Shown piece after piece: positions 29,127 to 49,003 of a stretch of 64,000 nt of DNA. The notes under the pieces are model-generated. The model had not been told where the DNA came from. It did not search any database and saw only the letters and a program-made list of their open reading frames with translations. The DNA is taken from the NCBI GenBank assembly GCA_017889545.1, contig JAGFZV010000002.1:1-64000 (forward strand), read 5' to 3'. The DNA comes from Bacillota bacterium. GTDB lineage: Bacteria > Bacillota > Negativicutes > CTSoil-072. Both the position numbers and the translations under genes were made by a program. Position 1 is the stretch's first letter; the number at the start of each line of letters is the position of its first letter.

Positions 29127-29137
29127 TAGAGACCGCT
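29089..29137 (+). repeat. att-like direct repeat, left copy (3' end of the glycosylase gene)
   Basis: 46 of 49 bases match 31297-31345 (TTTATATCAAAGACAATGCG... through the stop codon to GAGACCGCT). The pair brackets about 2.2 kb that carries the first toxin/immunity cassette, as attL/attR would after insertion into the 3' end of the glycosylase gene. No recombinase gene is present between them. Confidence 0.65.
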
Positions 29138-29155
29138 GCCAAACTAAAAGGAAGG

Positions 29156-29212
29156 AAACACGGGGACAGGGATATTGTTTCTTTGAAAAACAATATCCCT
29201 GTCCCCGTGTTT
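29156..29212. repeat. 25-bp perfect palindrome, copy 1 (GGGGACAGG-type)
   Basis: Arms 29156-29180 and 29188-29212 (AAACACGGGGACAGGGATAT.. and its complement) with a 7-base loop. The same stem occurs at 31229-31285 with one loop change. GGGGACAGG palindromes resemble the REP-like repeats handled by RAYT transposases; here they sit just inside the two att-like repeats. It may also end the glycosylase transcript. Confidence 0.8.
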
Positions 29213-29214
29213 TC

Positions 29215-29303
29215 AGAAGAACGATTATAATCCTGGGCGACAACGCAGAAAGCTGTAGGTGAAAACCTTGGCTCTCTTTTCATTTGGAACGTAAGAGATC
29301 GTC
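29215..29303 (+). ncRNA. putative structured RNA element, copy 1
   Basis: 89 bases, 87 identical to 33261-33349. It contains a helix AGAAAGC/GCTCTCT (one mismatch here, perfect in copy 2) topped by AGGT-GAAA-ACCT, a GNRA-type tetraloop. I do not recognise a known riboswitch or sRNA class. Copy 2 lies just before the phase-variable regulator; here the regulator is missing and only promoter-like sequence follows. Confidence 0.5.
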
Positions 29304-29327
29304 CTCCTCTCCATTTTTGTTATTTAG

Positions 29328-29342
29328 TGTACGTATAAAGAA
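29328..29342 (+). promoter_or_regulatory. TGTACGTATAAAGAA motif, copy 1
   Basis: Identical 15-base motif also at 32989 and 33988, each just before a Shine-Dalgarno sequence. The flanks of this copy align with copy 3 (TTTTTGTYAYTTRR upstream; GGRGGGAGGG downstream). The ATG that follows (29358) stops after two codons, so what it served has been deleted. Probably a promoter read by an island-specific factor. Confidence 0.45.
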
Positions 29343-29409
29343 GGGGGGAGGGGAAAAATGCAGTGATGATCCTTATACGCATGTTATAAGAAATAAAATA
29401 GAGCAACTG

Positions 29410-29450
29410 AACCCCATACTTCAAGGTGAAAAACCTTGAAGTATGGGGTT
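29410..29450 (+). terminator. hairpin upstream of effector gene 1
   Basis: Arms AACCCCATACTTCAAGGT / ACCTTGAAGTATGGGGTT, 18 bp perfect. The homologous hairpin at 35666-35718 sits directly after the tail-tube gene and before effector 2. Here the bases just before it (29376-29402) match the last codons and stop of that tube gene, so it is a displaced terminator. Confidence 0.65.
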
Positions 29451-29502
29451 TCGTTGTAAACGGCTACAAGGCGCAAAGGTAATGGATTGAGAGGTGTAAA
29501 CA

Positions 29503-30612
29503 ATGGCTGATGAAATCAATGGGTTTGAAGGCTTATTTTGGGATGGGACGGTACTGTTTCCGGATGAAAGTGAAGCAACAGACGGTGCCGAAAGTGAGAA
29601 TATAGAAAATCCCGTTAACGTGGTTGTGAATCAGGCTGGAATTGATGTCGGTGGTGAATTGCAGAGCAGCACAGATCAGTCGGACAATCAACCAGGCATT
29701 ATTGATAAAGTCGCAGCTTTTCTAAAAGGGGGTCTAAATACCGAAACACAGACTTATCTGGTTGTAGATCCTTTTGGACTTCCGGCAGACCCAGCTCCTC
29801 ATGAAGATACCTGGGCAGATCCGGATGAATTAACGGAACAACAAAAAAATGATGGTTTAACGATCGGAATTGATCCGTTGGGAGGAACATGGATCGTAAA
29901 CAGCAATGATGACCCGATCCCGGAAGAAATAGACAGGTTCAACCGTAAACTTGAATATATAGACGGTTATGCCAGAGCGCTTGGGAAAACATTTGTCTAT
30001 GATCCTAACGCAAGCTTTGAACAGAACCTGCATAAAGCACTAGAACTAGGAGGGTTTGCGCCTGGTGTCGGCGCCACGGCGGATCTTGCGAATGCAGTAG
30101 TGTATTTGAGCGAAGGCAACTACAAAGAAGCAGGCTACAGTGCAATAGCAGCAGTACCTTTAGCCGGAGATGCTTTTGCTGCGGGAAGAATTACCAATAA
30201 AGCAGGGAAAGTTGTCGATGGGCTGAGTAAAGCTGCAGAGGAAGTAGCTGGAAGTAGCATCAAATTTACTCAAACGACTGCCTCGGTACGTTTTAGTAGG
30301 AACGGAACTTTTTCTGGTAAAACGATTGGCGAGTTAGCAAATGATTTAAGAACTGGAGTGCTTAAGTCAACCGATGTTCCGGTTGAGTATATTGAGAGAG
30401 ATAGTGTTAAACTAGTAGTAAACACAAGGTCGTCTCTCGTGTTAAGAAGAGCAGGAATTCCAGAAACAGAGTGGAATTTGGTTAATAAAACAGGCGATGC
30501 ATTTACAGAATCGAAAGTTACAGAACGACTAGCGCGCAATGAATTGACTGAAGAGGGAACAGATGCTATCAGAGTTACTGGATCAGGAAAGAATGTTAGC
30601 AGTTTAGAATAG
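29503..30612 (+). CDS. polymorphic-toxin-like effector 1 (shared N-terminus, pre-toxin region, ParB-like C-terminus)
   Basis: 369 residues. Residues 1-155 are closely related to the protein at 35764 (MADEINGFEGL.WDG; DPFGLPADPAPHEDTWADPD; DELTEQQ; GIDPLGGTWIVN), probably a sorting/loading region. Residues about 180-225 (GGFAPGVGATADLANAVVYL, AAVPLAGDAFAAG) match the pre-toxin segment common in polymorphic toxins. The last 120 residues (IKFTQTTASVRFS, VLKSTDVPVEYIERD, NTRSSLVLRRAGI) resemble ParB-like toxin tips, in which the usual DNRRLAA is altered. No signal peptide. A small candidate immunity gene follows after 10 bases. Toxicity is inferred. Confidence 0.72.
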   Translation: MADEINGFEGLFWDGTVLFPDESEATDGAESENIENPVNVVVNQAGIDVGGELQSSTDQSDNQPGIIDKVAAFLKGGLNTETQTYLVVDPFGLPADPAPHEDTWADPDELTEQQKNDGLTIGIDPLGGTWIVNSNDDPIPEEIDRFNRKLEYIDGYARALGKTFVYDPNASFEQNLHKALELGGFAPGVGATADLANAVVYLSEGNYKEAGYSAIAAVPLAGDAFAAGRITNKAGKVVDGLSKAAEEVAGSSIKFTQTTASVRFSRNGTFSGKTIGELANDLRTGVLKSTDVPVEYIERDSVKLVVNTRSSLVLRRAGIPETEWNLVNKTGDAFTESKVTERLARNELTEEGTDAIRVTGSGKNVSSLE

Positions 30613-30622
30613 GAGTGAGAAA

Positions 30623-30982
30623 ATGCAGGTAGAAAAAGTATATATTATTAAAGAACTTGCTCAAGATTTTGTAAAGGATCCACAAATAAAAACGACTGAC
30701 AACAACGCTATGCTAATCTATGAGTACGAAGGGGAGTCTGGCGACACTGAAACAAAAGGAATTACGTTCAATGACGTTTTGGCGAGCAAGCATACAACGG
30801 AAATGGGTATGGAAGTATATATGGTCAAAGCCTATAATGCAGTTTCTGTTGTTGAAAATTCTCAATGGTCAAAGGAGTTTGGTGAAAGCATTACTGAGCA
30901 GGGATATAAGCATTTCATAGTGTACTTTGATGATTTTGGGGCATACGAATTCTTAGCTAAAACTTTTGAAAAACCTGAATAG
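30623..30982 (+). CDS. candidate immunity protein for effector 1
   Basis: 119 residues, acidic, with no signal peptide or membrane segment, starting 10 bases after effector 1 behind TAGGAGTGAG. I do not recognise a family. Position, size and low-GC composition relative to the core genome are typical of immunity genes; a cytoplasmic location fits a toxin acting inside cells. Its 3' flank (31021-31120) is homologous to the flank after the second immunity gene (37420-37520). Confidence 0.55.
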   Translation: MQVEKVYIIKELAQDFVKDPQIKTTDNNAMLIYEYEGESGDTETKGITFNDVLASKHTTEMGMEVYMVKAYNAVSVVENSQWSKEFGESITEQGYKHFIVYFDDFGAYEFLAKTFEKPE

Positions 30983-31116
30983 GCAAAGAATGTACAGGTG
31001 TAATTCACACTTATTTTACTGCAAAACTTCGTCCAAACTCATTGCAAAAATGACTGACGCCGAGGTTTGCATCCATGAAACCAGTACACTTTATAGTTTT
31101 TTGATAAACACAGAGC

Positions 31117-31164
31117 ACAAGGTGACTGACGGAAAAATTATTATTATGCCGTCAGTCACCTTGT
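31117..31164 (+). terminator. hairpin at the end of cassette 1
   Basis: Perfect 16-base arms ACAAGGTGACTGACGG / CCGTCAGTCACCTTGT. It lies in the conserved 3' flank of the toxin/immunity cassette. There is no strong T tract. Confidence 0.55.
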
Positions 31165-31228
31165 ATGCCACTCGTATTCTGTTAAGTCTTAAAATGGATA
31201 GGCTATACTAAACTGGACAGTTTTTTTA

Positions 31229-31285
31229 AAACACGGGGACAGGGATATTGTTTCCTTGAAAAACAATATCCCTGTCCCCGTGTTT
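31229..31285. repeat. 25-bp perfect palindrome, copy 2 (GGGGACAGG-type)
   Basis: Stem identical to 29156-29212; loop CCTTGAA instead of CTTTGAA. It lies 11 bases before the right-hand att-like repeat, so the two palindromes mark the inner ends of the 2.2-kb insertion. Confidence 0.8.
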
Positions 31286-31296
31286 ACCCGTGTTTA

Positions 31297-31345
31297 TTTA
31301 TATCAAAGACAATGCGTATGTGGAGCGAAAATAATGGAGACCGCT
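31297..31345 (+). repeat. att-like direct repeat, right copy
   Basis: Matches 29089-29137 (end of the glycosylase gene) at 46 of 49 positions but lacks the rest of the gene. A hairpin with a T tract (ACAGACTGCA/TGCAGTCTGT, 31376-31412) follows. Confidence 0.65.
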
Positions 31346-31375
31346 ACTAGCATTATTTGCGAAATATTTGGGGAG

Positions 31376-31412
31376 ACAGACTGCAGAATTAGGATTATGC
31401 AGTCTGTTTTTT
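31376..31412 (+). terminator. terminator after the right att-like repeat
   Basis: Arms ACAGACTGCA / TGCAGTCTGT then TTTTTT. It may be the original terminator of the glycosylase gene, displaced by the insertion. 31413-31557 shows nothing I recognise. Confidence 0.65.
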
Positions 31413-31557
31413 GCGTCTTAGGCAGATCCTCTACATTACATAAAATAACACCCCCGATATCTCGGAAGGTGCATAATTATTAACAGGGTTTTTGGCAGAC
31501 GCAAATTGCAAACTGTTTTAATTTCCATTGAACGGACATTAAAACCTAATTAAAATA

Positions 31558-31639
31558 CACCTCTTATGTCATAAGCTTTATCATACCACATAAGAGGTGC
31601 CTGTTTTCCAACTGATGGGAAGGTTAAAACCTTCCCATC
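31558..31639 (-). terminator. two hairpins downstream of the exported tandem-domain protein gene
   Basis: GATGGGAAGGTT/AACCTTCCCATC (31614-31639) and CACCTCTTATGT/ACATAAGAGGTG (31558-31599). Read on the minus strand the second is followed by TATTTTAATT and is the better terminator for the gene at 31657. Confidence 0.6.
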
Positions 31640-31656
31640 TCTTTATTAGTACTAGC

Positions 31657-32718
31657 TTACGGTAAATTGAATTCATTTTGTAGCTTGTTCATTAAGAATT
31701 CAGTACCTTCTTGCCGTTTCATTTTTTTCCCCGTATCAAAAACGACATTAGAAATATATTTGTTCGTTTCAGGGTCGACAACAAAGATATCTTCTTTTAA
31801 ACGATAACTGAAATCGTCATCGCCAAAATTAATATTACTTATCACAATAGCAGTCACCAGATTAGAATTGGTCGCTTTTCCATACTCTGTAAGGCTTTCT
31901 TTCTTTAAAATAAAAGTTTGCTGTTTCGCACTATCAGTTCCCACTCTACCAATTAAATCGAGGAACGCCGGAGATTTCGGTTTATTATCAACGTAGATAG
32001 GAACTTCACTTACGCGAAATTTTTCTGAAACTGTTTTTCTGACCTTATCCAGCAAATCTGGTTTTTCAAGAATGATATCGGGCAAAAATACAACGACAGA
32101 ATGTTTTATTTCTTCCGCCTGAACATTGTTTTTCTTATCTGGTTTTTCAACTGGGGGCGTCCAATGAAAATCAATTGCCATATTATTAACTAATTCTTTC
32201 GCTCCTTCCGTCAACATAGGGTTTGTTCCTTCTTTGTACCACCGCAAATATTCCACATATTTGCGAGATGTCACATCAATCACCGAAACAGATTCTTTCA
32301 TATCAAAGCGAACGCCCGACCAAAAATTCCAATATGCATTGCATGGAGAAATTGTAATCAGTATAACATAGTCAGATTTTATGGCTTGTCCATAATTAGC
32401 CAAGTCACCAATATTTATTACTTTTATATTTTTTTCATTAGCGGGATCTGTCTTTACCTTGTCAATGTAATCCAAAAATTCGGGTGTTTTTGCTTGTTCG
32501 TCTCCGTATATTACCACAGTACTTGCATCTTTAAATTTTATCTTAAGGGTATCGCGAATTTTGGCAACAGTTTTACTATCTTCAAGGATTTTCTTATCCA
32601 AAAATAATACCACGGAGACTTGAGGCTGATCCGACGAATCCGCTAAGTCGTTGGGACTTGCCAAACCAATTGAGTGCAAACCAAGCAATAAACAGACGAT
32701 CACTAATAACTTTTTCAC
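31657..32718 (-). CDS. exported protein with two tandem homologous domains, function unknown
   Basis: 353 residues. A clear signal peptide (MKKLLVIVCLLLGLHSIGLA) is followed by two copies of a roughly 150-residue domain. Paired features are SVVLFLDKKILEDS versus SVVVFLPDIILEKP, TPEFLDYIDKVKTD versus SPAFLDLIGRVGTD, LANYGQAIKSDYVI versus LTEYGKATNSNLVT, and VIDVTSRKYV versus VVDPETNKYI. The product should be periplasmic or secreted. I do not recognise the family. It is on the opposite strand to the tail module and may be host cargo or unrelated. The start has GGGGGGAA upstream on the minus strand. Confidence 0.65.
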   Translation of the reverse strand: MKKLLVIVCLLLGLHSIGLASPNDLADSSDQPQVSVVLFLDKKILEDSKTVAKIRDTLKIKFKDASTVVIYGDEQAKTPEFLDYIDKVKTDPANEKNIKVINIGDLANYGQAIKSDYVILITISPCNAYWNFWSGVRFDMKESVSVIDVTSRKYVEYLRWYKEGTNPMLTEGAKELVNNMAIDFHWTPPVEKPDKKNNVQAEEIKHSVVVFLPDIILEKPDLLDKVRKTVSEKFRVSEVPIYVDNKPKSPAFLDLIGRVGTDSAKQQTFILKKESLTEYGKATNSNLVTAIVISNINFGDDDFSYRLKEDIFVVDPETNKYISNVVFDTGKKMKRQEGTEFLMNKLQNEFNLP

Positions 32719-33260
32719 AAATAATTCCCCCCAAATAGTAGGTTTAAATATCCTTTCGCTGCATAGGTAATTATTCCCTGCAAAATACCATTTATCCGGA
32801 ATTATTCATGTAATTTTATCCAAAATGGTGAAATGTAAATAAATTCAAGTATTGCAATGAACGCTTCCATATCAACTCCTATACTTCGGTCACCATTGAC
32901 GTACAAAGGGGTATTTTTGATAAATTATGTAAATATTTGGTGCGGATTTAAAATATTCGAAAACCCCCTATACTTTTTCAGGTTGAACTGTACGTATAAA
33001 GAATAGGAGGACAATTCTAAATGGAAAAGACGATATTCTCTCCTTGGTATATTTGACATAATATTACATAATATATATTATTTAACTAGTGAAAATTTGT
33101 TCAATGAATAGCGAGGGCGTAATATGAATTTGTAAGATATGGAGGTGTATTATGCTGATTACAGAAACTATCGACCTATTTTTAAAAAAACTCAAGCGCT
33201 AAAGTAGGAAAAGGTTGGGGTTGTTGTTCGAGCTGCAGAAGTTACACAAATTAATACAAT
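32719..33260. other. AT-rich intergenic region with two tiny ORFs
   Basis: Contains TGTACGTATAAAGAA copy 2 and two very short reading frames with ribosome sites. One, at 33021-33056 (11 residues, MEKTIFSPWYI), follows TAGGAGG. The other, at 33152-33202 (16 residues, MLITETIDLFLKKLKR), follows GGAGGTG. The second resembles the N-terminal start of a tyrosine recombinase and may be an integrase remnant, but this is weak. The rest is AT-rich with no other feature. Confidence 0.4.
32989..33003 (+). promoter_or_regulatory. TGTACGTATAAAGAA motif, copy 2
   Basis: Identical to copies 1 and 3 and followed at once by TAGGAGG and the 11-residue ORF at 33021. Probable island-specific promoter or leader element. 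Confidence 0.45.
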
Positions 33261-33349
33261 AGAAGTACGATTATAATCCTGGGCGACAACGCAGAGAGCT
33301 GTAGGTGAAAACCTTGGCTCTCTTTTCATTTGGAACGTAAGAGATCGTC
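33261..33349 (+). ncRNA. putative structured RNA element, copy 2
   Basis: 89 bases, 87 identical to 29215-29303. Helix AGAGAGC/GCTCTCT (33293-33323) is perfect here and capped by AGGT-GAAA-ACCT; the G/A difference between copies improves the pairing. The regulator gene starts 20 bases downstream, so it may be a cis-acting leader. No known class recognised. Confidence 0.5.
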
Positions 33350-33370
33350 ATTGTATAAGGAGGTAATCAT

Positions 33371-33758
33371 GTGTACGGATCACGGTCAAGGGGAGAGAAG
33401 AGTTCTGATTTGCCGCAAAAAGCGTTGTTTGGCGATGAATACGATGTCAGGCGACTTGTGAATATCATTCGTCGCTACCATGAACTGAGAAGTGCGGCTG
33501 AAATTACAATTGCTGTATATGAGCCCGTTGGGGGAGGGGGGGGGTTATCGGGGCAAAGACAATATTTTGTGTGTACTTGCCGACATTGATCAGGGATTAG
33601 CGTTATTATCGTCGCGACAAATGATTGTTGTTGAGCTGTTGAAAAGAGGTTATCAAGTCAAGGAAATTGGCAGCATTCTTGGGATTAGTCCGACGACTGT
33701 AAAATTTCACTTACAGCAGGCGGTATTACGGTTAGCTGCGTACCTCAATAATTTATAG
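33371..33758 (+). pseudogene. phage-type HTH regulator interrupted at a G9 tract (frameshifted or phase-variable)
   Basis: The frame opened by GTG at 33371 (behind AAGGAGGT) encodes SRSRGEKSSDLPQKALFG and DEYDVRRLVNIIRRYHEL, then ends soon after a G5-A-G9 run at 33530-33544. The +1 frame continues with DIDQGLALLSSRQM and a sigma-region-4/LuxR-like HTH (VKEIGSILGISPTTVKFHLQQA). Removing one G gives a single 128-residue protein covering 33371-33758, with length exactly divisible by three. So the copy here is off, phase-variable, or a sequencing error. By position and HTH type it should activate the tail locus. An overlapping ATG at 33369 gives only a 30-residue peptide. Confidence 0.75.
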
Positions 33759-33773
33759 AGGAAGGGTGAAAAG

Positions 33774-33959
33774 ATGAAGCGATATTATAGCCTGGAGTTG
33801 TTGGAAAGCCTTTATCGGCAACAGGAGCCTAGCTTTCCAGAAAGCACAATAAAAGAACGGGCGAAAAGCCTGCAAAAAGGATTAAACACGCTGGATACAT
33901 GCTGGGCTCGAAGTAATCGTCGATTTTATGCCCATATTCAACTGATGGAGTTTATCTAA
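33774..33959 (+). CDS. small phage-type protein, function unknown
   Basis: 61 residues (MKRYYSLELLESLYRQQEPS...), charged, soluble, starting 15 bases after the regulator behind GGAAGGGTG. I do not recognise it. It lies between the regulator and the third TGTACGTATAAAGAA motif and has been deleted from the duplicated locus at 29.3 kb. Confidence 0.55.
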   Translation: MKRYYSLELLESLYRQQEPSFPESTIKERAKSLQKGLNTLDTCWARSNRRFYAHIQLMEFI

Positions 33960-33987
33960 ATCCTACCTATCTGTTTTTGTCACTTGA

Positions 33988-34002
33988 TGTACGTATAAAG
34001 AA
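33988..34002 (+). promoter_or_regulatory. TGTACGTATAAAGAA motif, copy 3
   Basis: Same motif and flanks as copy 1, followed by GGAGGGAGGG and the cysteine-rich small gene at 34020. It lies at the head of the tail genes, so it is the best candidate for their promoter. Confidence 0.5.
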
Positions 34003-34019
34003 GGAGGGAGGGAGAAAAT

Positions 34020-34154
34020 ATGTATTGTCCATTACTTTGCAGCAGCCCAAATAAGAGCACAGCTTCATTTTGTCAATGTTTGGGAGAAGCCTGCGCTTGG
34101 TGGGTTGTAGTCAACAATACCGGTAAATGCGCAATTACTCAGCTTGGAGCGTAA
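34020..34154 (+). CDS. 44-residue cysteine-rich phage protein (CAWW type)
   Basis: ATG behind GGAGGGAGGG. The peptide has six cysteines (C3, C7, C18, C20, C25, C37) and the motif EACAWWVV followed by GKCAI. Similar short CPL...C...CAWW...CAI proteins occur in clostridial-type prophages and probably bind a metal. It is too short for many gene callers. In the copy at 29.3 kb only the ribosome site and first codons of this region remain. Confidence 0.6.
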   Translation: MYCPLLCSSPNKSTASFCQCLGEACAWWVVVNNTGKCAITQLGA

Positions 34155-34207
34155 GGCATCGGTAAAAGAGAGAGCTAATATTCCATTATTAAGAAAGGGA
34201 TGAGAAC

Positions 34208-34684
34208 ATGGTACCGACATTGAAATTGAGAGATATCGTGGTTAAATGGCGGGATGCTTTGCAGGCAAGTTCGGCCATACAAAGCTATTGTACTACTAAG
34301 TATAGCAAGTCGCCAAAAATTTACGTTGGCATTAACGGTAAAAGCCTCCCGGCGGATACCGACTGCCCGATAATTATCATTTATCCCGGGGAGAAATCGG
34401 AAGGGTTGGAACTGCAAGAGTATAGTTATACTTTGACAGTGGGCTGGACGATTCTTCAGTCGGCGACGACCACGACCGGCAGCATTACGGAGTATACGGG
34501 AGCCACGGAGTGTGACGATCTTGGACAGTTGATCTATCTGGAGCTGGCGCAACTGAGTACGAATTACCCTGTCAGCGAAGTGAAATACAATATTGAACCG
34601 GTGGCCTATTATCCGCGCTTTCCCGGCCGCATGGATATCACTGTAAAAATTAAGCCTGTCAATGGCTATAGCATTAGTTACTAA
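34208..34684 (+). CDS. tail terminator/completion-like protein
   Basis: 158 residues, mostly beta-strand-like, soluble, no signal peptide (LRDIVVKWRDALQASSAI; KIYVGINGKSLPADTDCPIIIIYPG). I infer a gpU-type tail terminator because of its size and its place directly before the tail-tube gene (13-base gap), as in lambda-like tail operons. Direct sequence recognition is weak. GAAAGGGATGAG precedes the ATG. Confidence 0.5.
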   Translation: MVPTLKLRDIVVKWRDALQASSAIQSYCTTKYSKSPKIYVGINGKSLPADTDCPIIIIYPGEKSEGLELQEYSYTLTVGWTILQSATTTTGSITEYTGATECDDLGQLIYLELAQLSTNYPVSEVKYNIEPVAYYPRFPGRMDITVKIKPVNGYSISY

Positions 34685-34697
34685 GGGGGGAAACAAC

Positions 34698-35651
34698 ATG
34701 TCAAGAGCAAAGGGATATACATCCAAATTGGCTCTGGCGTATGAGAGCGCATACGGTCAGACCCCGGCATCCCCGGTGGGTTATAATATGCCATTTAATC
34801 AGTCGAAAATCACAATTTCACAAAACCTGATTGATTCGAGTACGATCCGTAGTCGCCGTGACAAAATGCAGCCGTCAATCGGCAATATCGATGTATCCGG
34901 CAATATTGTGGTGCCGGTCGATCAAATCGGCATTGGCTTTTGGCTACGGGCCATGTTTGGCAATCCAACAACTACCGGCAGTGCTGATCCTTATACCCAT
35001 GTATTCAAAGCAACCAATAGTCAGCCGTCGCTAGTGCTGGAGCAGCAATACCCGGATGTTCCGGCTTATGAAAAATACAACGGATGCAAAGTAAACAAAT
35101 TCTCCTTCGCGTATGGCGGCGATGATGAGCTGATTGCCAATATGAATATCCTTGGTGCGAAGCGAATCGTCGAGTCTTCATCGTTTGATGCAATGCTGAC
35201 TGATATTTCAATCCTGAAATACAGCAACTTTCAAGGATCGATCGAAGAAGGCGGCTCACAATTGGCGACAGTGACCGAAGCCAGCTTGAATGTTGATTTC
35301 GGCCTGGATGGCAATACCTATGCCATCGGTGGCAACGGCTGCCGGACCGATCTGCCGGAAGGGATTATGCAAATATCCGGCAACCTCAAAGCGTTTTTTG
35401 CTGATACCGTGTTATTGAATAAGGCGGTTGACAACACCAAATCCTCGCTTAAATTCAAATTCACCAGCGGGACCCACAGCTTGCAATATTATATGGAAGA
35501 GGTAGTCTTCCAGCAAACTTCACCGGGCATTGAAACCGATAAAGGCATTATGATCAATTTGCCATTCAAAGCGTTTTATGACAAAGGTGCCGGCGGCAGT
35601 GCCATTGTAGCGACGCTCGTCAATAGTCAAACATCCTACGCATCGTTATAA
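34698..35651 (+). CDS. phage tail tube protein
   Basis: 317 residues from the ATG at 34698 behind GGGGGG. The opening SRAKGYTSKLALAYESAYGQTP, then FNQSKITISQNLIDSSTIRSRRD and the GNIVVPVDQIGIGFWLRAMFG segment, are characteristic of the long tail-tube family of siphophages and tailocins. It would polymerise into the tail tube. The last codons and stop are partly repeated at 29376-29390 ahead of effector 1. A 24-bp hairpin follows, then effector 2 where tail chaperone and tape-measure genes would usually be. Confidence 0.75.
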   Translation: MSRAKGYTSKLALAYESAYGQTPASPVGYNMPFNQSKITISQNLIDSSTIRSRRDKMQPSIGNIDVSGNIVVPVDQIGIGFWLRAMFGNPTTTGSADPYTHVFKATNSQPSLVLEQQYPDVPAYEKYNGCKVNKFSFAYGGDDELIANMNILGAKRIVESSSFDAMLTDISILKYSNFQGSIEEGGSQLATVTEASLNVDFGLDGNTYAIGGNGCRTDLPEGIMQISGNLKAFFADTVLLNKAVDNTKSSLKFKFTSGTHSLQYYMEEVVFQQTSPGIETDKGIMINLPFKAFYDKGAGGSAIVATLVNSQTSYASL

Positions 35652-35665
35652 GAAACAAAATAGAA

Positions 35666-35718
35666 CAACGAACCCCCATACTTCAAGGTGAAGAACCTCG
35701 AAGTATGGGGGTTCGTTG
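35666..35718 (+). terminator. hairpin between the tail-tube gene and effector 2
   Basis: Arms CAACGAACCCCCATACTTC.. / ..GAAGTATGGGGGTTCGTTG, 24 bp with one mismatch. Homologous to 29410-29450. It could limit read-through so that effector expression differs from that of the tail genes. Confidence 0.7.
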
Positions 35719-35763
35719 TAAGTGGCTATACGGAGCAAAGGACATGAGGTGGTAGGTGTAAAA

Positions 35764-36723: not shown

Positions 36724-36735
36724 GAAGGAGAAAAC

Positions 36736-37371
36736 ATGAATTTTGAAAAATTTCCCCAAAGATTTAAGGCTAGTTTTTCATTGAAAAAAACAATATTGCT
36801 TGATGATGAATTGAAGAAAAAGTTTAGTAATTCGATTGGGGCCGCAGAGTTTTTACAAAACTATGCAGGCACAACATTCAATAATGGTTTATATAGGATT
36901 CATAAAGTTGAAGATATTCCAAAATGGAATGCAATTGTTGGAAAAGTGTTTCCTGAGATTGCAGATTTTATTGTTTGTTTTTCCTACGATTGGTTAGGAC
37001 GTCACTTTGCTCTTGATTTTAGAAGGAAAGAAAATGATGAGCCCTTAATTATTATACTAGAACCTGGAACTGGTGACGCGCTTGAGGTTCCAACAACATT
37101 TAGGATGTTTCATGAAGAGGAATTGTCAGAGCATCAAGATGCTGCATTGTCGGTTGATTTTTTCAATCAATGGAGAACAAATAACTCTGAAAGATTATTA
37201 AATAATCAGTGTGTTGGATATAAAGTTCCGCTTTTTATCGGCGGGCAAGATACCATGGAAAACTTAGCATTAGGTGACATGGAAGTATATTGGGAAATAT
37301 GTGGGCAGTTGCTGAATAAAGTTCGTAATTTACCACCTGGAACACCGATAAGTGTCACGATTTCTGATTAA
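36736..37371 (+). CDS. Tdi1-like immunity protein for effector 2
   Basis: 211 residues, cytoplasmic. N-terminal GAD-like region (FKASFSLKKTILLDDELKKK) and C-terminal DUF1851/Tdi1-like region (GYKVPLFIGGQDTMENLAL, GDMEVYWEICGQLL, LPPGTPI). These domains are known from immunity proteins of type VI and other polymorphic toxins, notably those against nucleases. AGGAAGGAG precedes the ATG, 12 bases after effector 2. Low-GC composition compared with the tail genes around it suggests recent acquisition. Confidence 0.72.
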   Translation: MNFEKFPQRFKASFSLKKTILLDDELKKKFSNSIGAAEFLQNYAGTTFNNGLYRIHKVEDIPKWNAIVGKVFPEIADFIVCFSYDWLGRHFALDFRRKENDEPLIIILEPGTGDALEVPTTFRMFHEEELSEHQDAALSVDFFNQWRTNNSERLLNNQCVGYKVPLFIGGQDTMENLALGDMEVYWEICGQLLNKVRNLPPGTPISVTISD

Positions 37372-38248: not shown

Positions 38249-38252
38249 CAGT

Positions 38253-38870: not shown

Positions 38871-38871
38871 T

Positions 38872-43118: not shown

Positions 43119-43349
43119 TGAATATGTTATATACGACAAATGTAGGTCTCTAGGTCTGTGGTGAGTGGGAGTTTCACCTGCAAATTGGGTTGGGATGATT
43201 TTGCTTTTCGTAGTGATGTCTTTTCACCAGGTGATGATGGTCGATGTGACGGCACTAGAAGTTTATCCGGTTCTTGCTGGGTTTTGCCACTCGTTTTATT
43301 GGTGGAGTGATCATAAATTATTAAATTTTAATATTAGGAGTGATTTTAA
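43119..43349. other. probable decayed gene between the tip protein and the fibre
   Basis: A start at 43125 encodes only MLYTTNVGL. Further on, different frames encode fragments that look coding (FSPGDDGRCDGTRSLSGSC in one, HSFYWWSDHKLLNFNI in another), which suggests a fibre-like gene broken by frameshifts. No intact product. Confidence 0.4.
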
Positions 43350-44063
43350 ATGGCTTACGATGCAAATGTACCTGTTGATAACTTAATAATCTCTGCGATA
43401 CCTGGGGCAATACGAGAAAAGGGTGTAGAAGTAAAAAACATTATTGATGCACATACAAGCGATACTACCGATGCACATGCGGCAAGTGCAATAACCAATG
43501 TCGCACAGGGAAATATTAGTTCAACTACAGTACAAGAAGCAATTAATGAATTAGACACAAAAAAAGTGCCTGCTACGGATGTTGCCACAGAGGCAGGCGC
43601 AAATAAAATTTTGAAATTAAACGCAACCGCTAAACTTCCTGCAGACATCACAGGAAATGCTGCTACGGCAACAATTTTAGCGTTGACTAGGAAAATTGCA
43701 GGTGCAAATTTTAACGGTGACTCAGATATAGATATATCATATGCAAATCTTACTAATAAACCAACCATACCGCCTAATTATGATCTTGGTCATCTTTTAG
43801 CGAGTAATGGATATCAAAAGTTTGAAAATGGATTAGTGATTCAATGGGGTACTGTATTCGGGATCAATGACACAAATACTGCAGTCACATTTCCTGTACC
43901 TTTTTCAACAGCGGTTCTTTGTGCTTTAGCATCTTTGAACTTTGCATTCTCTACCGGTAATGATGCGGGTTGCGGAACAAACGCATGGACAACAACGGGT
44001 ATGAATGTTCGCAATGGTTCCAGTGTGAATGGAAATGTTTGTTGGATTGCCATAGGATACTAA
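43350..44063 (+). CDS. tail fibre protein
   Basis: 237 residues. The N-terminus is low-complexity with repeated D-A-H and T-D segments (NIIDAHTSDTTDAHAASAI). Then come ATDVATEAGANKILKLNATAKLPADITGNAATA, found in phage fibres, and a C-terminal gp53-like tip (NGYQKFENGLVIQWGT, VTFPVPFSTAVLCALAS). It should bind the target cell. TAGGAGTG precedes the ATG. It ends the tail part of the module; a terminator follows. Confidence 0.75.
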   Translation: MAYDANVPVDNLIISAIPGAIREKGVEVKNIIDAHTSDTTDAHAASAITNVAQGNISSTTVQEAINELDTKKVPATDVATEAGANKILKLNATAKLPADITGNAATATILALTRKIAGANFNGDSDIDISYANLTNKPTIPPNYDLGHLLASNGYQKFENGLVIQWGTVFGINDTNTAVTFPVPFSTAVLCALASLNFAFSTGNDAGCGTNAWTTTGMNVRNGSSVNGNVCWIAIGY

Positions 44064-44100
44064 GAGATTTAAAGAATATCTACAGAAACGCTAGTGCGGA

Positions 44101-44165
44101 AAAATTTACAATCCCCATTGTCAGGTGAAATAGAACTTGGTCATGGGGGTTGTAAATTTTTGTCT
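44101..44165 (+). terminator. terminator after the tail fibre gene
   Basis: 18-base arms AAAATTTACAATCCCCAT / ATGGGGGTTGTAAATTTT, followed by TT. 44166-44298 has no other gene. Confidence 0.75.
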
Positions 44166-44298
44166 GTAGTCATCGATTTTATACCTATATTAAACTGCTG
44201 GATTTTATCTAAATCATAGCGATTTTTGAATTGTCTCATTTTTGAAGAGTTCATTGCAGTGAAATAAAGAGGAAACAATTTTGGGAGGAAAGGATACT

Positions 44299-44613
44299 AT
44301 GGCTGATGATTCGAATAGTGAATTTAATCGACTATTTTCTTCGGGTTCATTTGATGTCACCGGATTTGACAGTGCTAATAATGATACTTCGTTAAATAAT
44401 CCAAAAATGATGAATACATTCAACAATGTATGGAAAAATAATTTTCAGACAGCCTTAGGACCACTTAATTCCGCATTTATTGATGCGGAATTAAGTGATC
44501 AAGATGTTGCGGATGGGTATGTATTGGAGTATAATCCAATTGGGATATTATGGAGAGTAAATGCTGCTGGAATACCGCATCCCGATGATTCAGACAATTA
44601 TTTTGCCACATAA
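44299..44613 (+). CDS. marker-domain-only protein (effector without a toxin tip)
   Basis: 104 residues from the ATG behind GGGAGG. Residues 45-100 (ALGPLNSAFIDAELSDQD; EYNPIGILWRVNAAGIPHPDD) are closely similar to residues 60-115 of the peptidoglycan-hydrolase effector at 47092 and match the shorter motif of effectors 1 and 2. It ends straight after the motif, so it has either lost its toxin or works as an adaptor. A membrane-anchored candidate partner follows after 14 bases. Confidence 0.65.
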   Translation: MADDSNSEFNRLFSSGSFDVTGFDSANNDTSLNNPKMMNTFNNVWKNNFQTALGPLNSAFIDAELSDQDVADGYVLEYNPIGILWRVNAAGIPHPDDSDNYFAT

Positions 44614-44627
44614 GGAAAACTGAGGAG

Positions 44628-45083
44628 ATGATGCAAAAGGTGTTCAGCATGTTTAGAATAATAGTTGCTGTAATCATTGGTTCTATCCTTTTGTGTGTAT
44701 TTACGATTCCAGTGGTTTACCGAGTGGTTAACTACACGGAGATAGAGCAGAGAGAACAAAATTTGCATTCGGAATTTCAGGCTATTGTCCACCCGGAAGG
44801 TGCAAAACAGCTAAAGTATAAGATGAATAGTAAAATAGTCATGCGATGGATTGATGCCGAATATACATATACTAATATGAACGATCTGGAAGTAGAAAGA
44901 TACTACAATGCAGAAATGATCCGTAAAGGATGGATTAAACAGACCGTAAGTGAAGAACGCTATAAGCATTTTCATGAGTCAATCTATAGGAAAGAGGACT
45001 ATGAGATGGTTTTTAGTCCGCATAAAGATTCAGTGGGAATATACCTGAATTACAAAGATATTTTTGATAGGTTAGGGTTGTAA
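44628..45083 (+). CDS. membrane-anchored protein, possible immunity protein
   Basis: 151 residues. One N-terminal membrane segment (FRIIVAVIIGSILLCVFTIPVVY) with a charged extracytoplasmic domain (KQLKYKMNSKIVMRWIDAEYTY...). Family not recognised. Position right after the marker-domain gene suggests an immunity protein for a lost envelope-acting toxin. Starts at 44628 and 44631 are both possible next to GAGGAG. A terminator follows. Confidence 0.5.
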   Translation: MMQKVFSMFRIIVAVIIGSILLCVFTIPVVYRVVNYTEIEQREQNLHSEFQAIVHPEGAKQLKYKMNSKIVMRWIDAEYTYTNMNDLEVERYYNAEMIRKGWIKQTVSEERYKHFHESIYRKEDYEMVFSPHKDSVGIYLNYKDIFDRLGL

Positions 45084-45113
45084 TAAGATTGGTTTCATTA
45101 CCGAGTTGCATGC

Positions 45114-45195
45114 TGGCAGCATCTTTTATGGATGCTGCCATTTTTGTCAAATAATCTTTCGAAACATCCCCTGGTTATATGCCGGGGGATGTTTC
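45114..45195 (+). terminator. two hairpins after the membrane protein gene
   Basis: TGGCAGCATC/GATGCTGCCA then TTTTTG (45114-45145) is a good terminator. GAAACATCCC/GGGATGTTTC (45161-45195) adjoins the mosaic repeat. Confidence 0.7.
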
Positions 45196-45199
45196 TCCT

Positions 45200-45407
45200 T
45201 CACACAGCCTGTAATACCCCATTCGGGGCACTGGGACACCCGTCCTCTTAGGTCGGCGAGCCTGTACCCGAAGTGTGAAACAGGCTGTAGCTCGAATCCC
45301 TAAAGGAAAACTTCGGCTTCGCGAAATCAAAGATTTCGAGCCTCAGACTTAAATGTAGACTTGCTTCAGGTAGAGTTTTTACTCCATCTGAAGCAAGTCT
45401 ACATTTA
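45200..45407 (-). repeat. mosaic palindromic repeat, copy B (inverted relative to copy A)
   Basis: The reverse complement of 45200-45292 matches 2412-2517 over nearly its full length (GCTACAGCCTGTTTCAC, CCGACCTAAGAGG, GGGGTATTACAGGCTGTGTG). The second unit (45351-45407) is a hairpin with arms starting AAATGTAGACTTGCTTCAGG, here with a short loop. The filler between the units is unrelated to that of copy A. It lies just before the lysis genes. Confidence 0.75.
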
Positions 45408-45453
45408 TTTTCAGCAAATTTCGTAATGTATCATTTTGGAGGGAGGTGAAGTG

Positions 45454-45723
45454 ATGGGCGGAGACAATGAGGTTTGCATTTTGCATACGGATATAAGCCG
45501 CGGCATGACCGATTTAAATAAAGATGTCGGCAAATTATCCGAACGGCTGGGGCGGGTAGAGGAGAACACCAAAGACATACCGGCGATCTTGACTGCCATT
45601 GAAGAAATCCGGAATCAGAGGGCAAATTCTGCGGGTTTTATTGCTGGGGTGGCCTTTGCAGTGTCACTGCTGGTATCCGGTGTAGGGTTCAGTCTGACAA
45701 TTTGGTTTTCGAGGGGGCATTAA
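45454..45723 (+). CDS. XhlA-like lysis/holin-accessory protein
   Basis: 89 residues. A heptad-like N-terminal region (LNKDVGKLSERLGRVEENTKDI) and a single C-terminal membrane segment (FIAGVAFAVSLLVSGVGFSLTIWF) are the layout of XhlA/hemolysin-type proteins of phage lysis cassettes. GGAGGGAGGTGAAG precedes the ATG. The next gene starts 1 base after its stop. Confidence 0.68.
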   Translation: MGGDNEVCILHTDISRGMTDLNKDVGKLSERLGRVEENTKDIPAILTAIEEIRNQRANSAGFIAGVAFAVSLLVSGVGFSLTIWFSRGH

Positions 45724-45724
45724 C

Positions 45725-45973
45725 ATGGCAGTAATCTATGGATGTATCGTTGCTATCGCCACATTTGTTGTTTTTTGGTTCATTTCTTATGCGTGGGCCT
45801 GGCACAGCAACGCAACAGCGGGGACGAAATATGATCTTAATTCTTGGATACAAATGGGGCAGCTCGTGGCCGCGCAAATGACGGCGGTTCTGACTAACCA
45901 TAGCTTGTTTAATACCGACATACCTTGGCTGAGCCGCATCTTCGAAAAAGTGAAAGGAGACATGTTGAAATGA
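45725..45973 (+). CDS. small membrane protein of the lysis cassette (holin candidate)
   Basis: 82 residues with an N-terminal membrane segment (VIYGCIVAIATFVVFWFISYAWAW) and an amphipathic remainder (WIQMGQLVAAQMTAVL). It could act as a holin, but the single strong membrane segment makes this uncertain. It overlaps the endolysin start (ATGA) and lies between XhlA-like and glucosaminidase genes. Confidence 0.55.
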   Translation: MAVIYGCIVAIATFVVFWFISYAWAWHSNATAGTKYDLNSWIQMGQLVAAQMTAVLTNHSLFNTDIPWLSRIFEKVKGDMLK

Positions 45974-46419
45974 ACAATAAATATTTTGCGCCGAGAGTAA
46001 ACGAGTATGTCTTTTGTTTGGCCGAACGAGCGGCGGAAATCGCCGGAACACCGATAAAAGCGGAGTGGATCTATTGTCAATGGGCGCATGAAACAGGACA
46101 ATTCACTTCAGAACTGATGCAGAGCAACCATAATCTTGGCGGTCTTTGCCAAGTGGAAAAGAATGATTCATCTCAACCCGACGGCGATCAATATTATATT
46201 CATTTCCCGAGCTATGAAGCTTGCGCAGAGTATTTCGGATATTACCTGCGCAACTATCGGGAAGACGGCATATATGGAGCGGAAACATTGGCGGACTATG
46301 TCCGGGCGTTAAAGCACGGCGGCTATTTCGGCGACACAATGGAAAACTATTTGGCTGGGACAAATAGGATATTTGAAGAATGTTTTTCAGCCGAACATGA
46401 GGTGACGGAGGATGACTGA
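45970..46419 (+). CDS. endolysin, glucosaminidase-type (GH73-like)
   Basis: 149 residues. WIYCQWAHETGQFTSELMQSNHNLGGLCQ has the catalytic glutamate and N-N-L-G-G pattern of N-acetylglucosaminidases. PDGDQYYIHFPSYEACAEYFGYYLR and YVRALKHGGYFGD match the rest of the domain. No signal peptide, so it needs the holin. The ATG overlaps the previous stop, and its own end overlaps the next start. Confidence 0.82.
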   Translation: MNNKYFAPRVNEYVFCLAERAAEIAGTPIKAEWIYCQWAHETGQFTSELMQSNHNLGGLCQVEKNDSSQPDGDQYYIHFPSYEACAEYFGYYLRNYREDGIYGAETLADYVRALKHGGYFGDTMENYLAGTNRIFEECFSAEHEVTEDD

Positions 46420-47029
46420 TGAATCAAAAGGAACAATGATCAACTTAGGCGGCTATTCAATCAAAACAGTCGTAATTTGTACTCTGTTTGGCCTGTGTTT
46501 CGGAATGGCCGGCGGTGCATGGATGGGGTATGCCTGGGGCTCGCGTCCAGTGGAATACCGGCAAGCAGATGGGCAAATCACGCAGCCGCTGCCGGTTGCG
46601 GTTGACACAATTGATACAACTGCTGCCGCTGTGGCGCCATCTGAACAGGAGGGAGATGTGGTGCAGTTTCGGCAGATGGAAAATAAGATTGTGGCCTTAG
46701 TGAATGGCAGGGAATATGCTGTGCCCAATCTGACGGGCAGTAATTCTGTGCAACTGGGTTCGACAGGGCAATTGCAATTGGTGCATCAGACCACCAGCCA
46801 GATTGATGTGACGCCTATCGTCAATCAGATGTTGGCGGATAAGCTGGCTTTGGAAAAATCCAAGCAAAAAAACAATGCGATTGGAACGTATTTAACGACA
46901 GAAAGCTGCGGTGTTGTCATCAGCAAGGATACTGCCAGACAGAGAGTAATGTTGCTGGCTGGTAAGAAATGGGCCAAGCAAGATGGTCGCCAGGTGGAAG
47001 TGGGCGGAGCGTGGCAGTGGAAGTTTTGA
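46412..47029 (+). CDS. membrane-anchored protein of the lysis cassette, function unknown
   Basis: 205 residues. One membrane segment (TVVICTLFGLCFGMAGGAWMGYAW) near the N-terminus, a proline/threonine-rich stretch, and a C-terminal domain of short strands (IVALVNGREYAVPNL; GVVISKDTARQRVMLLAGKKW). Not recognised. Overlap with the endolysin suggests a lysis role, possibly reaching the outer membrane like a spanin; the sequence does not prove this. GACGGAGG precedes the ATG. Confidence 0.55.
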   Translation: MTDESKGTMINLGGYSIKTVVICTLFGLCFGMAGGAWMGYAWGSRPVEYRQADGQITQPLPVAVDTIDTTAAAVAPSEQEGDVVQFRQMENKIVALVNGREYAVPNLTGSNSVQLGSTGQLQLVHQTTSQIDVTPIVNQMLADKLALEKSKQKNNAIGTYLTTESCGVVISKDTARQRVMLLAGKKWAKQDGRQVEVGGAWQWKF

Positions 47030-47091
47030 TTTCTGCTGCCCTACAAAATGCCGCAATAGGCAGACATTAAAGTTTGTAAGGGGATGATAAG

Positions 47092-48282
47092 ATGAGTTTA
47101 GAAGACGATTTTGCTTTGGATGCAAAATCAATTGCTTCCGTCTCGCACCCGTCGCCATCGCTATTGGTGTGGAGTAACACTGTTGCAAGTAGACAAACGA
47201 TAGCGACTAATAGTTTATTAAATACCAATTTTTATCCAGAATATGCTGCAAAAACATATATCGATAGATGGAATGAAAATTTTTATTGCATTTTAGGGCC
47301 TTGTAATCCCGCATTTGTTGATGCAGAGCTAAGCGATCAAGATATTGCGAATGGATTGTATTTAGAGTATAATCCAAATGGGATATTATGGAGAGTTAAC
47401 GCTGCTGGGGTACCACATTTTGATGATTTCGATCATTTTCTTGAGCAGAACAGAGTAATTGAAAGTACAACGAATCGTACAATAGAAGAGGTTCAAGATA
47501 GTAACAATTCCGCGGTTGGCATTGGGGGTGGTAGTGAAGCTGAAACTGAATATGCAAAACAAGTGATATTGAGTAAAGAGAGCGTGAATAGTAGCTATCA
47601 AGATCCTAATAGTCCGCCTACTATTATACTGAAAGATACATTTGAGCAAAGGCAAACAAGCACTGAATATTTTTCATATATAGACAAAGATGGAAATACT
47701 GTTACAAAAAGGTGGACTATTTCAAATAATGAATTCTTAGATTGCAATGCTTTAACACAGGAACAAATAACTAGAATATTAATGAGCAAAAATCCAGAAT
47801 TAGTCAACAGAGGATTTGATACAGCTATTTATGAATATGCACAAAAATTGAGAATAAACCCTAAAGTATTGCTGTCTTCTCTCGCCCAAGAGCAAAATTG
47901 GTGCCGAGGTGGTGGGTATTATGAAGCTTTTGGTGTTGGGGCAGGAGGAAATCCAGAATCTTTTGAAGATGGAGGTATCGCTATAGCTGCAAGAACATAT
48001 TTAAATGCATTTAATGAAGGGAGAAGCTATGGAAGTAGTATTCCTGCAATCAAAGTAAATCAGGATATTAAAGCTGACGAAAGAAAAGCCGTATTTGGTT
48101 CAGCAACTGCTGCTTGGGAAGCTGTAAATTCTCAGTATGTGCAGTATATGAATGAAGGAATAACCATTAAACCAGTAAATGCGGCAATGTATGCCAAACT
48201 TTCGTATACTCCTTGGATTGATTTTCCTCCTCAAGAATCACAACCATTAATGGATTGGCATGATATTTTCCGTTCTTTCTAA
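47092..48282 (+). CDS. effector 4: marker domain fused to a peptidoglycan hydrolase (glucosaminidase-like)
   Basis: 396 residues. Residues about 60-115 (ILGPCNPAFVDAELSDQD; EYNPNGILWRVNAAGVPHFDD) are the marker shared with 44299. A linker follows. Residues about 220-350 (LRINPKVLLSSLAQEQNWCRGG; FGVGAGGNPESFEDGGIAIAARTYLNAF) look like a GH73/lysozyme-like domain with a candidate catalytic glutamate in AQEQ. It has no signal peptide, so it depends on delivery or lysis. The next gene encodes an exported protein, as an immunity protein in the periplasm should be. AAGGGGATGATAAG precedes the ATG. Confidence 0.7.
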   Translation: MSLEDDFALDAKSIASVSHPSPSLLVWSNTVASRQTIATNSLLNTNFYPEYAAKTYIDRWNENFYCILGPCNPAFVDAELSDQDIANGLYLEYNPNGILWRVNAAGVPHFDDFDHFLEQNRVIESTTNRTIEEVQDSNNSAVGIGGGSEAETEYAKQVILSKESVNSSYQDPNSPPTIILKDTFEQRQTSTEYFSYIDKDGNTVTKRWTISNNEFLDCNALTQEQITRILMSKNPELVNRGFDTAIYEYAQKLRINPKVLLSSLAQEQNWCRGGGYYEAFGVGAGGNPESFEDGGIAIAARTYLNAFNEGRSYGSSIPAIKVNQDIKADERKAVFGSATAAWEAVNSQYVQYMNEGITIKPVNAAMYAKLSYTPWIDFPPQESQPLMDWHDIFRSF

Positions 48283-48436
48283 AGCGCAAAACACCTATAA
48301 TCGTATTTGTTATCTTTTTGAGGTTGATAATATTACATTTTGCAACAAAATGTTATGCGTTTTGTTATTCCTTTTGCAGGAACTGTATTGCTTTGCGAGG
48401 CATTGTTAGAGAAAAAGCGTGAATGGTGGTAAAAGT

Positions 48437-49003
48437 ATGCAAAATGGAGTACATAAAAAGAATAACGTACTTGTAATGACCATGATTTTTTTATTGCTAC
48501 TTATAGGTAATGTTAATATTAGTGAGTCATCAGGTGTTACGGGTCATAGCGATACCCAAACGCAAATCTCATTGGAAAACACTTTTGATGGGACTTACTT
48601 TAAAGAAATGCTTTATCTGGCGAAGGAGGAGTTAATTAGTCGTCTTGGGGAAAATTATTTAGAGGGTACCACTGCTATCGAGAAGTCACACATAATATTT
48701 CCACTTTTGTTCTATAAAGATTTAGGATTGACTTTTGTTTTTAGCGCGGGAAAAGTTGAGCGGATTGAAGTTTGTGAAGAGACAAATATTAAAGGAATAA
48801 ATATCAATGATGCAAAACCCGGTATGAATTTTGAAGAAATACGCTATAAGTTAGGCGAAGCGGAAGTAAATGAAACATGGAAAGCCACTAAGGCAATAAA
48901 AGCATATGAAATACATTATGTAGTCGATGGTTTGCAATATAAATTCATGTCTGGATATAAAGATGGAAGAGCATCAAAATTAATAATATCCGAGGACTTA
49001 TAA
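48437..49003 (+). CDS. exported protein, probable periplasmic immunity protein for effector 4
   Basis: 188 residues from the ATG at 48437 (a GTG at 48419 is in frame). A signal peptide or membrane anchor (NNVLVMTMIFLLLLIGNVNISES) is followed by a soluble domain (ISRLGENYLEGTTAIEKS; GININDAKPGMNFEEIRYKLGEAEVNE) with a pattern like small exported SmpA/Lpp-like or DUF4309-type domains. Family not certain. Export matches a peptidoglycan-acting toxin upstream. It is the last gene of the island; 49004-49140 holds nothing recognised. Confidence 0.55.
   Translation: MQNGVHKKNNVLVMTMIFLLLLIGNVNISESSGVTGHSDTQTQISLENTFDGTYFKEMLYLAKEELISRLGENYLEGTTAIEKSHIIFPLLFYKDLGLTFVFSAGKVERIEVCEETNIKGININDAKPGMNFEEIRYKLGEAEVNETWKATKAIKAYEIHYVVDGLQYKFMSGYKDGRASKLIISEDL

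Follow-up and report, generated by a model that had tools for sequence, protein, structure and literature searches.

A headless tail module without a tape measure and with toxin/immunity cassettes in a Negativicutes chromosome

Organization of the locus

The stretch of DNA considered here (the window, 64,000 nucleotides; positions 1 to 64,000, forward strand, of contig JAGFZV010000002.1, assembly GCA_017889545.1) comes from a Bacillota bacterium of the Negativicutes and contains, at 29138-49003, an island of about 20 kb made of a headless tail module in lambda order and of toxin/immunity genes, one pair of which sits in the slot of the tape measure. The genome (G000; the genomes and loci compared carry G and L numbers) is 3.27 Mb in 50 contigs and 96% complete. 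The window belongs to a 299-kb contig and the island begins 29 kb inside its start, so that a contig-end artefact was dismissed; since the same layout recurs in independent assemblies, including that of the isolate Sporomusa silvacetica DSM 10669, an assembly artefact was ruled out as well. The tail and lysis genes are the following.

34208-34684 (+): tail terminator (TT); phrog_17431, lambda gpU-like fold
34662-35651 (+): tail tube protein; PF18906, E=2e-54
37886-38248 (+): M-like tail protein; phrog_384 is its sole match, named by position
38253-38870 (+): L-like tail tip protein; PF05100, E=2e-18
38815-39267 (+): K-like NlpC/P60 protein; PF00877, E=5e-11
39264-43118 (+): J-like central fibre/tip; phrog_31 'central tail fiber J', E=3e-155
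43350-44063 (+): tail fibre; PF21882, Gp53-like_C
45436-45973 (+): two small holin-like genes (starts 45436 and 45725) with hydrophobic segments
45925-46419 (+): glucosaminidase endolysin; PF01832, E=5e-10
46412-47029 (+): membrane-anchored protein adjoining the endolysin; its homologue in L032 is 29% identical

The order terminator, tube, M, L, K, J, fibre and endolysin, which had been proposed in an original prediction made from the sequence alone, is borne out by the Pfam and PHROG matches and by the gpU fold. The identity of TT rested on position alone until an AlphaFold2 (AF2) model was obtained (predicted local distance difference test, pLDDT, 89), whose top Foldseek match is lambda gpU (3fzb, E=7.5e-6) and which matches the monocin cap (9j1j) as well; the M-like gene precedes L in most related loci. 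The holins are weaker: the open reading frame (ORF) at 45436 matches the holin family phrog_689 with a very weak E=0.012, and the one at 45725 matches no lysis family. Endolysin-type genes occur in five loci of the clade including the window, with Amidase_2 in L031, L033 and L035 and Glucosaminidase in L032.

The toxin/immunity genes share a marker domain, given below in amino acids (aa).

29503-30612 (+): toxin 1, 369 aa; marker aa 91-149, C-terminal toxin domain of no assigned type
30623-30982 (+): immunity 1, 119 aa; assigned from position, without strongly hydrophobic segment
35722-36723 (+): toxin 2, 333 aa, in the tape-measure slot; marker aa 104-162, HNH-like C-terminus by eye
36736-37371 (+): immunity 2, Tdi1-like; PF08906 (T6SS_Tdi1_C), E=4e-9
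44281-44613 (+): marker-only gene; marker aa 51-108, toxin domain gone
44628-45083 (+): putative immunity-like protein (immunity 3) with N-terminal membrane segment
47092-48282 (+): toxin 4, 396 aa; marker aa 60-119, C-terminus wall-hydrolase-like by eye, no Pfam match
48419-49003 (+): immunity 4, with a signal-like N-terminus in its sequence

Absence of tape measure and head genes

In the window, the interval from tube to M is taken up by the toxin 2/immunity 2 pair, beside which there are only about 510 bp of ORF-free sequence.

37372-37885 (no strand): intergenic stretch with no ORF of at least 60 aa on either strand, and no chaperone or tape gene

A tape hidden in the slot was dismissed, as there is no such ORF. 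In the whole genome of the window no tape was found with profile A3, PhageMin_Tail (PF10145), phrog_339 and phrog_1716, other tape families not having been searched; phrog_339 detects tapes in G062 and G010, and phrog_1716 in G043 and G062 (two of the nine genomes searched in each case). TerL_ATPase, Phage_portal, Phage_capsid and Phage_Mu_F revealed no head genes in the same genome, a search that left aside other terminase and capsid families; Pfam matched no integrase in the 20 ORFs of the island to which it was applied, the rest of the genome not having been searched for one. Thus, the claim that the island lacks head and tape genes holds, and with the profiles named none came to light elsewhere in the genome; by the same search, head and packaging genes are missing as in F-type tailocins, and the head, terminase and portal genes of a prophage were not found with these profiles.

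A tape encoded elsewhere might complete the tail in trans. Indeed, a PhageMin_Tail tape is present elsewhere in four of the eight module-bearing genomes, A3 has a match in G023 and G073, and the tape gene of S. silvacetica is found on another contig; but such tapes lie on other contigs or, in G033 and G023, hundreds of kilobases off, and none was detected with the four tape profiles in G000, G039 and G041. We consider supply in trans very improbable; as 4/8 module genomes have a tape elsewhere, it is disfavoured only in genomes like that of the window.

Conservation and origin of the tape-less lineage

Of 100 genomes searched, 23, that of the window among them, contain a match to the L protein, which is 75-100% identical in eight Negativicutes genomes from eight different families, again counting that of the window; named carriers are S. 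silvacetica DSM 10669, a Massilibacillus metagenome-assembled genome and P. fermentans JBW45, which has a degraded copy. In IMG/VR, relatives of L occur at 79 loci; one locus is identical to positions 29503-47029 of the window and therefore probably belongs to the same population. S. silvacetica has two L-bearing modules 14 kb apart, one of them without J; in this second module (L044:10733-13318) a short K is directly followed by a fibre-like gene.

In a tree built from M, L and K of 56 loci, the 15 tape-less rows form one clade (support 100/100), whose sister (86/88) comprises L036 and L037, in which a tape of 411-419 aa is retained that shows homology to phage tapes in their C-terminal part; a third short tape, of 353 aa (L039), is placed elsewhere. 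The tree dropped duplicates, the damaged L029 and L030 and the duplicates L046 and L047, rows without a classifiable slot, rows without M or K and those with L outside 190-235 aa, and named clade rows were kept with the genes present; the clade loci outside the tree are L048, L055, L058, L059, L066-L068, L072 and L126. Judged from these sequences, the tape-less state has a single origin. Since a tape of 411-419 aa persists in the nearest relatives and the tape-less loci go back to one origin, loss is favoured among the three options offered at first, i.e. a very short tail, a tape located elsewhere, or a lost tape.

A comparison of the locus among relatives, suggested together with the original prediction, found a tape in the slot in none of the 21 clade rows in which both tube and M are visible (14 distinct loci, as judged by equal ORF lengths and by the records). 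In 20 of them the slot protein has the marker and/or a helical domain, the calls for L060 and L126 being based on a weak partial helix match and that for L072 on a 536-aa ORF. Tape profiles match 0/33 clade loci versus 68/73 other loci. Duplicates are included in these numbers, 40 of the 73 had served to build the profiles, and several of the 33 are truncated ahead of the slot; the five non-matching other loci start less than 700 bp before L. As regards the slot ORFs of the other loci, tape measures make up 18 of the 25 PHROG families listed, and phrog_339 matches 17 of 39 members.

Within the tape-less clade, the median ratios of nonsynonymous to synonymous substitutions (dN/dS) are 0.094 for TT, 0.096 for tube, 0.078 for M, 0.064 for L and 0.115 for K, calculated on pairs with finite dS (28/45, 61/66, 77/78, 71/78 and 74/78, respectively), and 0.110 for the first 700 aa of J in eight loci chosen for long J ORFs; the ratios are rough, because many pairs are near synonymous saturation, and they demonstrate purifying selection on the tail genes. 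J is uninterrupted and at least 1284 aa long in 15 of the 24 clade rows examined; in the others it is cut by or lies beyond a contig end (five rows), is short or split (three) or is absent (one), and its length varies from 1284 to 2261 aa. The dN/dS values of about 0.06-0.12 and the uninterrupted J in 15/24 rows contradict the possibility, raised at the outset, that the tail genes of all relatives are inactive remains.

The sister tails add a further element. In the two short-tape loci of Pelosinus type (G043, G065) a downstream gene ends in the C-terminal motif of the tape: these effectors are L037:18173-19516 (447 aa, Lipase_3) and L171:8855-10423 (522 aa, no assigned type), which the A3 profile matches with E=1e-4 and 4e-4, respectively, with the motif aligned. 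With such genes in the sister tails, it becomes plausible that non-contractile tails of this kind incorporate effectors as well. The short-tape locus of G043 is preceded, at a distance of about 12 kb, by a contractile sheath gene (L173:8296-9699), and other tail-like genes occupy the space between the two; R- and F-type tailocins stand side by side in P. aeruginosa, and this neighbourhood looks like a paired locus of the same kind.

The cargo proteins

In the cargo proteins, varied C-termini follow the marker domain of 58 aa (alignment A2), a helical domain of 85 aa, or both. CdiA_C is found at the C-terminus of the L064 cargo, a Tlde1 domain in L164 (E=2e-4, below the cut-off), and toxin 2 of the window and the cargos of L031 and L061 have C-termini that look HNH-like by eye, the last with a weak Endonuclea_NS_2 match; the C-terminus of toxin 1 resembles by eye that of the L056 cargo. 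By their domain matches, the cargo C-termini are of antibacterial types (CdiA_C, Tlde1, Amidase_6). Common N-termini, differing C-termini and a downstream immunity gene, assigned mostly by position and by family only for immunity 2, are features of polymorphic toxins. The N-termini are hydrophobic in immunities 3 and 4 and not in 1 and 2, as expected if the target compartments differ. The three toxin/immunity pairs of the original prediction are all present, although 29503/30623 is better explained as the displaced cargo of a decayed module (see below); the marker-only gene at 44281 is likewise present, and it is adjoined by the immunity-like gene at 44628, which had not been counted as its partner.

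Searches of Pfam, NCBIfam and the PDB by sequence or fold gave nothing convincing on the identity of the marker. PDB sequence matches of toxins 1 and 4 were found only at E of about 0.5 and were taken as chance, and toxin 2 had no match in the same search; the marker was not found in phage records, nor toxin 4 in plasmid records. For the L061 cargo, the AF2 model has good confidence over the helices of the N-terminus, over the helical domain and over the marker, while its C-terminal half is poorly predicted.

The marker has 16 matches in 10 of 100 genomes. Ten of these adjoin tail genes (four in G000, two in G073 and one each in G001, G033, G039 and G041), and that on G073 C75 is at a contig end. 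Marker and tail occur together in six genomes versus 0.8 expected (hypergeometric P=5e-6, phylogeny ignored), on the basis of 100 genomes, eight with the tail (L identity of at least 75%) and ten with the marker. Two orphan proteins were observed in this survey: L160:1351-1671 (G008) is a marker-only ORF with no tail genes in 18 kb downstream, whose contig starts 1.4 kb upstream, and L161:9018-10505 (G011) is a marker protein with Amidase_6 and possibly an adjoining immunity gene, in a genome without the tail.

Cassette turnover

29376-31167 (+): displaced cargo cassette, with copies of the junction and 3' flank of the main module
35665-35719 (no strand): hairpin with 25-nt arm, between tube and cargo

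The region of toxin 1 repeats four pieces of the main module with their order kept: 29215-29303 is 98% identical to 33261-33349, 29302-29359 is 81% identical to 33961-34019, the tube-to-toxin junction copy 29376-29983 is 79% identical to 35637-36241, and the 3' flank copy 31019-31167 is 74% identical to 37419-37563. From these four ordered copies, the toxin 1 pair is most readily explained as cargo displaced from a second, decayed module, which would have lost regulator, terminator and tube. S. silvacetica has tandem TT-tube-cargo units (L045), and cargo flanked by fragments of tube or TT stands on contigs 129 and 66 of G073. Strong hairpins of differing sequence are present at the tube/cargo junction also in L028, L031, L032, L035, L061 and L064.

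The regulator pair

33371-33758 (+): LuxR/sigma-region-4-like regulator; frame broken at the G9 tract 33536-33544
33774-33959 (+): small protein accompanying the regulator, recognised by its conservation

The pair is directly 5' of TT in the window, L028, L031 and L035, further upstream in L032, and 5' of the tube in the short-tape loci L036, L037 and L039. The regulator is a single frame in L028, L031 and L032; in the window, the frame break at the G9 tract could reflect a sequencing error, phase variation or a genuine loss. The matching IMG/VR contig shows the same sequence at this tract, but it probably comes from the same sample. The tract follows GGGGGA, and runs of at least eight G or C were seen in none of the 12 other loci checked.

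Borders of the island

29089-29137 (no strand): left border of the island, made of the glycosylase gene's 3' end and the next 11 bp; second copy at 31297-31345 (94%)

The left neighbour of the island is a gene at 28530-29126, which from its translation we take to be of the 3-methyladenine glycosylase type, and the right neighbour is a gene starting at 49294, presumably for an ABC-transporter binding protein. The two copies of the glycosylase 3' end bracket the toxin 1 cassette and look like the scar of a duplication or of an attachment site. The same cassette is also flanked by two near-identical 57-nt palindromes (29156-29212 and 31229-31285), similar to repetitive extragenic palindromes, with perfect arms of 25 nt and a GGGGACAGGG core. 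Inside the island, 31657-32718 on the minus strand codes for a secreted-looking protein of 353 aa with two halves similar by eye and no Pfam match.

Interpretation

We regard it as fairly probable that the island is a chromosomal, F-type-derived tailocin of the Negativicutes, which lacks a tape and delivers polymorphic toxins. In the best reading of the loci compared, tape and tail chaperones were lost, and the slot and nearby sites came to host exchangeable toxin/immunity cassettes. The LuxR/sigma-4-like regulator pair would probably switch on the tail genes, a headless tail would be assembled from the tube, the terminator and the M-L-K-J tip, and the holin/endolysin set would release it by lysis; J and the fibre would then attach it to a related bacterium, which the toxin, held to the tail via its N-terminal marker and/or helical domain, would enter, while kin would be protected by the immunity gene. 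Assembly without tape, marker/helix loading, injection and the target range are steps that we infer; a self-assembling tube protein is reportedly known for SPP1. A tentative and rather doubtful extension is that the toxin takes the tape's place, its helical and marker domains docking on the M-L-K-J tip, lying in the tube and being injected. If true, such a tail would amount to a siphophage-derived machine for protein injection, having evolved in steps from a long tape through a short one to the toxin.

Several observations weigh against delivery by the tail. The slot of L034 is empty, with a 99-bp gap, and its marker gene follows K; the slot cargos of L031 and L035 have the helical domain and no marker at the threshold used. 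Five of the 16 marker matches (G008, G011, two in G090, and G016) are in genomes without a TT match; the match of G016 and one of G090, both short, were left out of the inspection of neighbouring genes, and no tail genes are found around the markers of G008, G011 and G090 contig 25, which in G008 and G090 lie near contig starts. The L061 cargo model has no PDB fold match by Foldseek at E of 0.001 or lower, and hhalign gives a probability of about 0.1% for similarity to tapes of both the marker (A2 against A6) and the whole cargo set (A4 against A3); that the cargo is a diverged tape was dismissed for this lack of profile similarity. The hairpins 3' of the tube resemble terminators, so that cargo expression could be separate from that of the tail.

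These points bear on the main rival explanation, a moron model in which the cassettes are independent passengers of an F-type tailocin locus, released by lysis or by another route, with a tail that kills classically if at all. The hairpins between tube and cassette, the cassettes outside the slot, the marker toxins of tail-less genomes and the empty slot of L034 are all consistent with it; passengers would, however, leave unexplained the lack of a tape in every resolved clade locus (0/33 matched by tape profiles) amid strong constraint on the tail, as well as the co-occurrence of marker and tail and the sister effectors with the tape C-terminus. We assign this model a low, though appreciable, likelihood.

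Damage is also seen, again to the detriment of the tailocin interpretation: the regulator frame is broken in the window, JBW45 has M and J cut, J is split in G073 contig 32, the L gene of G073 contig 15 is interrupted, and the S. silvacetica module L044 is a damaged copy. A decaying prophage remnant that gathers toxins could account for the broken regulator and for these copies in JBW45, in two contigs of G073 and in one S. silvacetica module; being largely contradicted by uninterrupted tail ORFs in several families, by dN/dS of about 0.1 and by the one origin of tape loss, it seems to us hardly credible. It is also quite unlikely that the tail is kept for another use, such as blocking the assembly of invading phages or supplying tails to a helper phage, with the toxins as addiction modules. 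Toxin/immunity pairs can stabilise loci, and defence by blocking virion assembly is known from the available part of PMC10884400; but the locus' own regulator, endolysin, fibre and variable J tips suggest released particles and changing targets.

The favoured reading is that of a toxin-delivering tailocin. As for the effector-carrying tail originally proposed, the headless non-contractile module, its lack of a tape, the toxin pairs and the conservation stand; particle formation and carriage of the cargo would follow from them as predictions, and the marker is shared with tail-less genomes.

Comparison with known systems

Described F-type tailocins, such as F-pyocin, monocin and rhizoviticin, are headless and non-contractile, with lambda-like order, fibre and lysis genes. 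The island resembles them, on its genes, in its siphophage-like tail order and dedicated lysis genes, the endolysin clear and the holins weak. They carry a tape measure, unlike the island, which, the tape being absent, is therefore classed as a derived relative of F-type tailocins and not as a typical member. In the available text of PMC8910223, PMC10811719 and PMC12090994, no protein cargo is mentioned for F-type tailocins, and in that of the first their mode of action is termed largely unknown. No description of a tape-less non-contractile tail with toxin cassettes was found among the papers listed by literature searches, which is weak evidence of novelty, as preprints and many subscription journals were outside the coverage. 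The tape measure is counted in the minimal tail in the accessible part of PMC10034513; a conserved tape-less tail lineage with toxin cassettes amounts to an experiment by evolution on the need for the tape, and suggests that non-contractile tails can carry protein payloads. S. silvacetica DSM 10669, being a culture-collection strain, makes direct testing possible.

MuF toxins, as described in the available part of PMC5576092, are polymorphic toxins encoded among the structural genes of phages, followed by small putative immunity ORFs and proposed to be injected; unlike the cassettes of the island, they sit in head/packaging modules, and the window genome has no Mu_F match.

Effectors of extracellular contractile injection systems (eCIS) and type VI secretion systems (T6SS) are similar in their C-terminal toxin, their cognate immunity and their domains of Tdi1 and Tlde1 type. 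Some of them have an N-terminal sorting domain. These systems differ from the island, which has a lambda-type tip and in which none of the 20 ORFs scanned with Pfam matched a sheath, VgrG or ATPase family, the sheath not having been searched genome-wide.

The closest parallels concern tape-related effectors. Tme, of actinobacterial contractile injection systems, occupies the position of the tape, upstream of the baseplate genes (PMC11126660, as far as its available text goes), and Sle1-type effectors have variable functional domains, one of which forms a toxin-antitoxin system (PMC13277306, likewise in part). Both belong to contractile systems and the effector itself is tape-related, whereas the island is non-contractile and its cargo has no detectable relation to the tape; the effectors of L037 and L171 do match the tape, at their C-terminal motif, and the fusion of Lipase_3 to a tape end in L037 is a nearer analogue of the Tme/Sle1 design than the cargo of the window.

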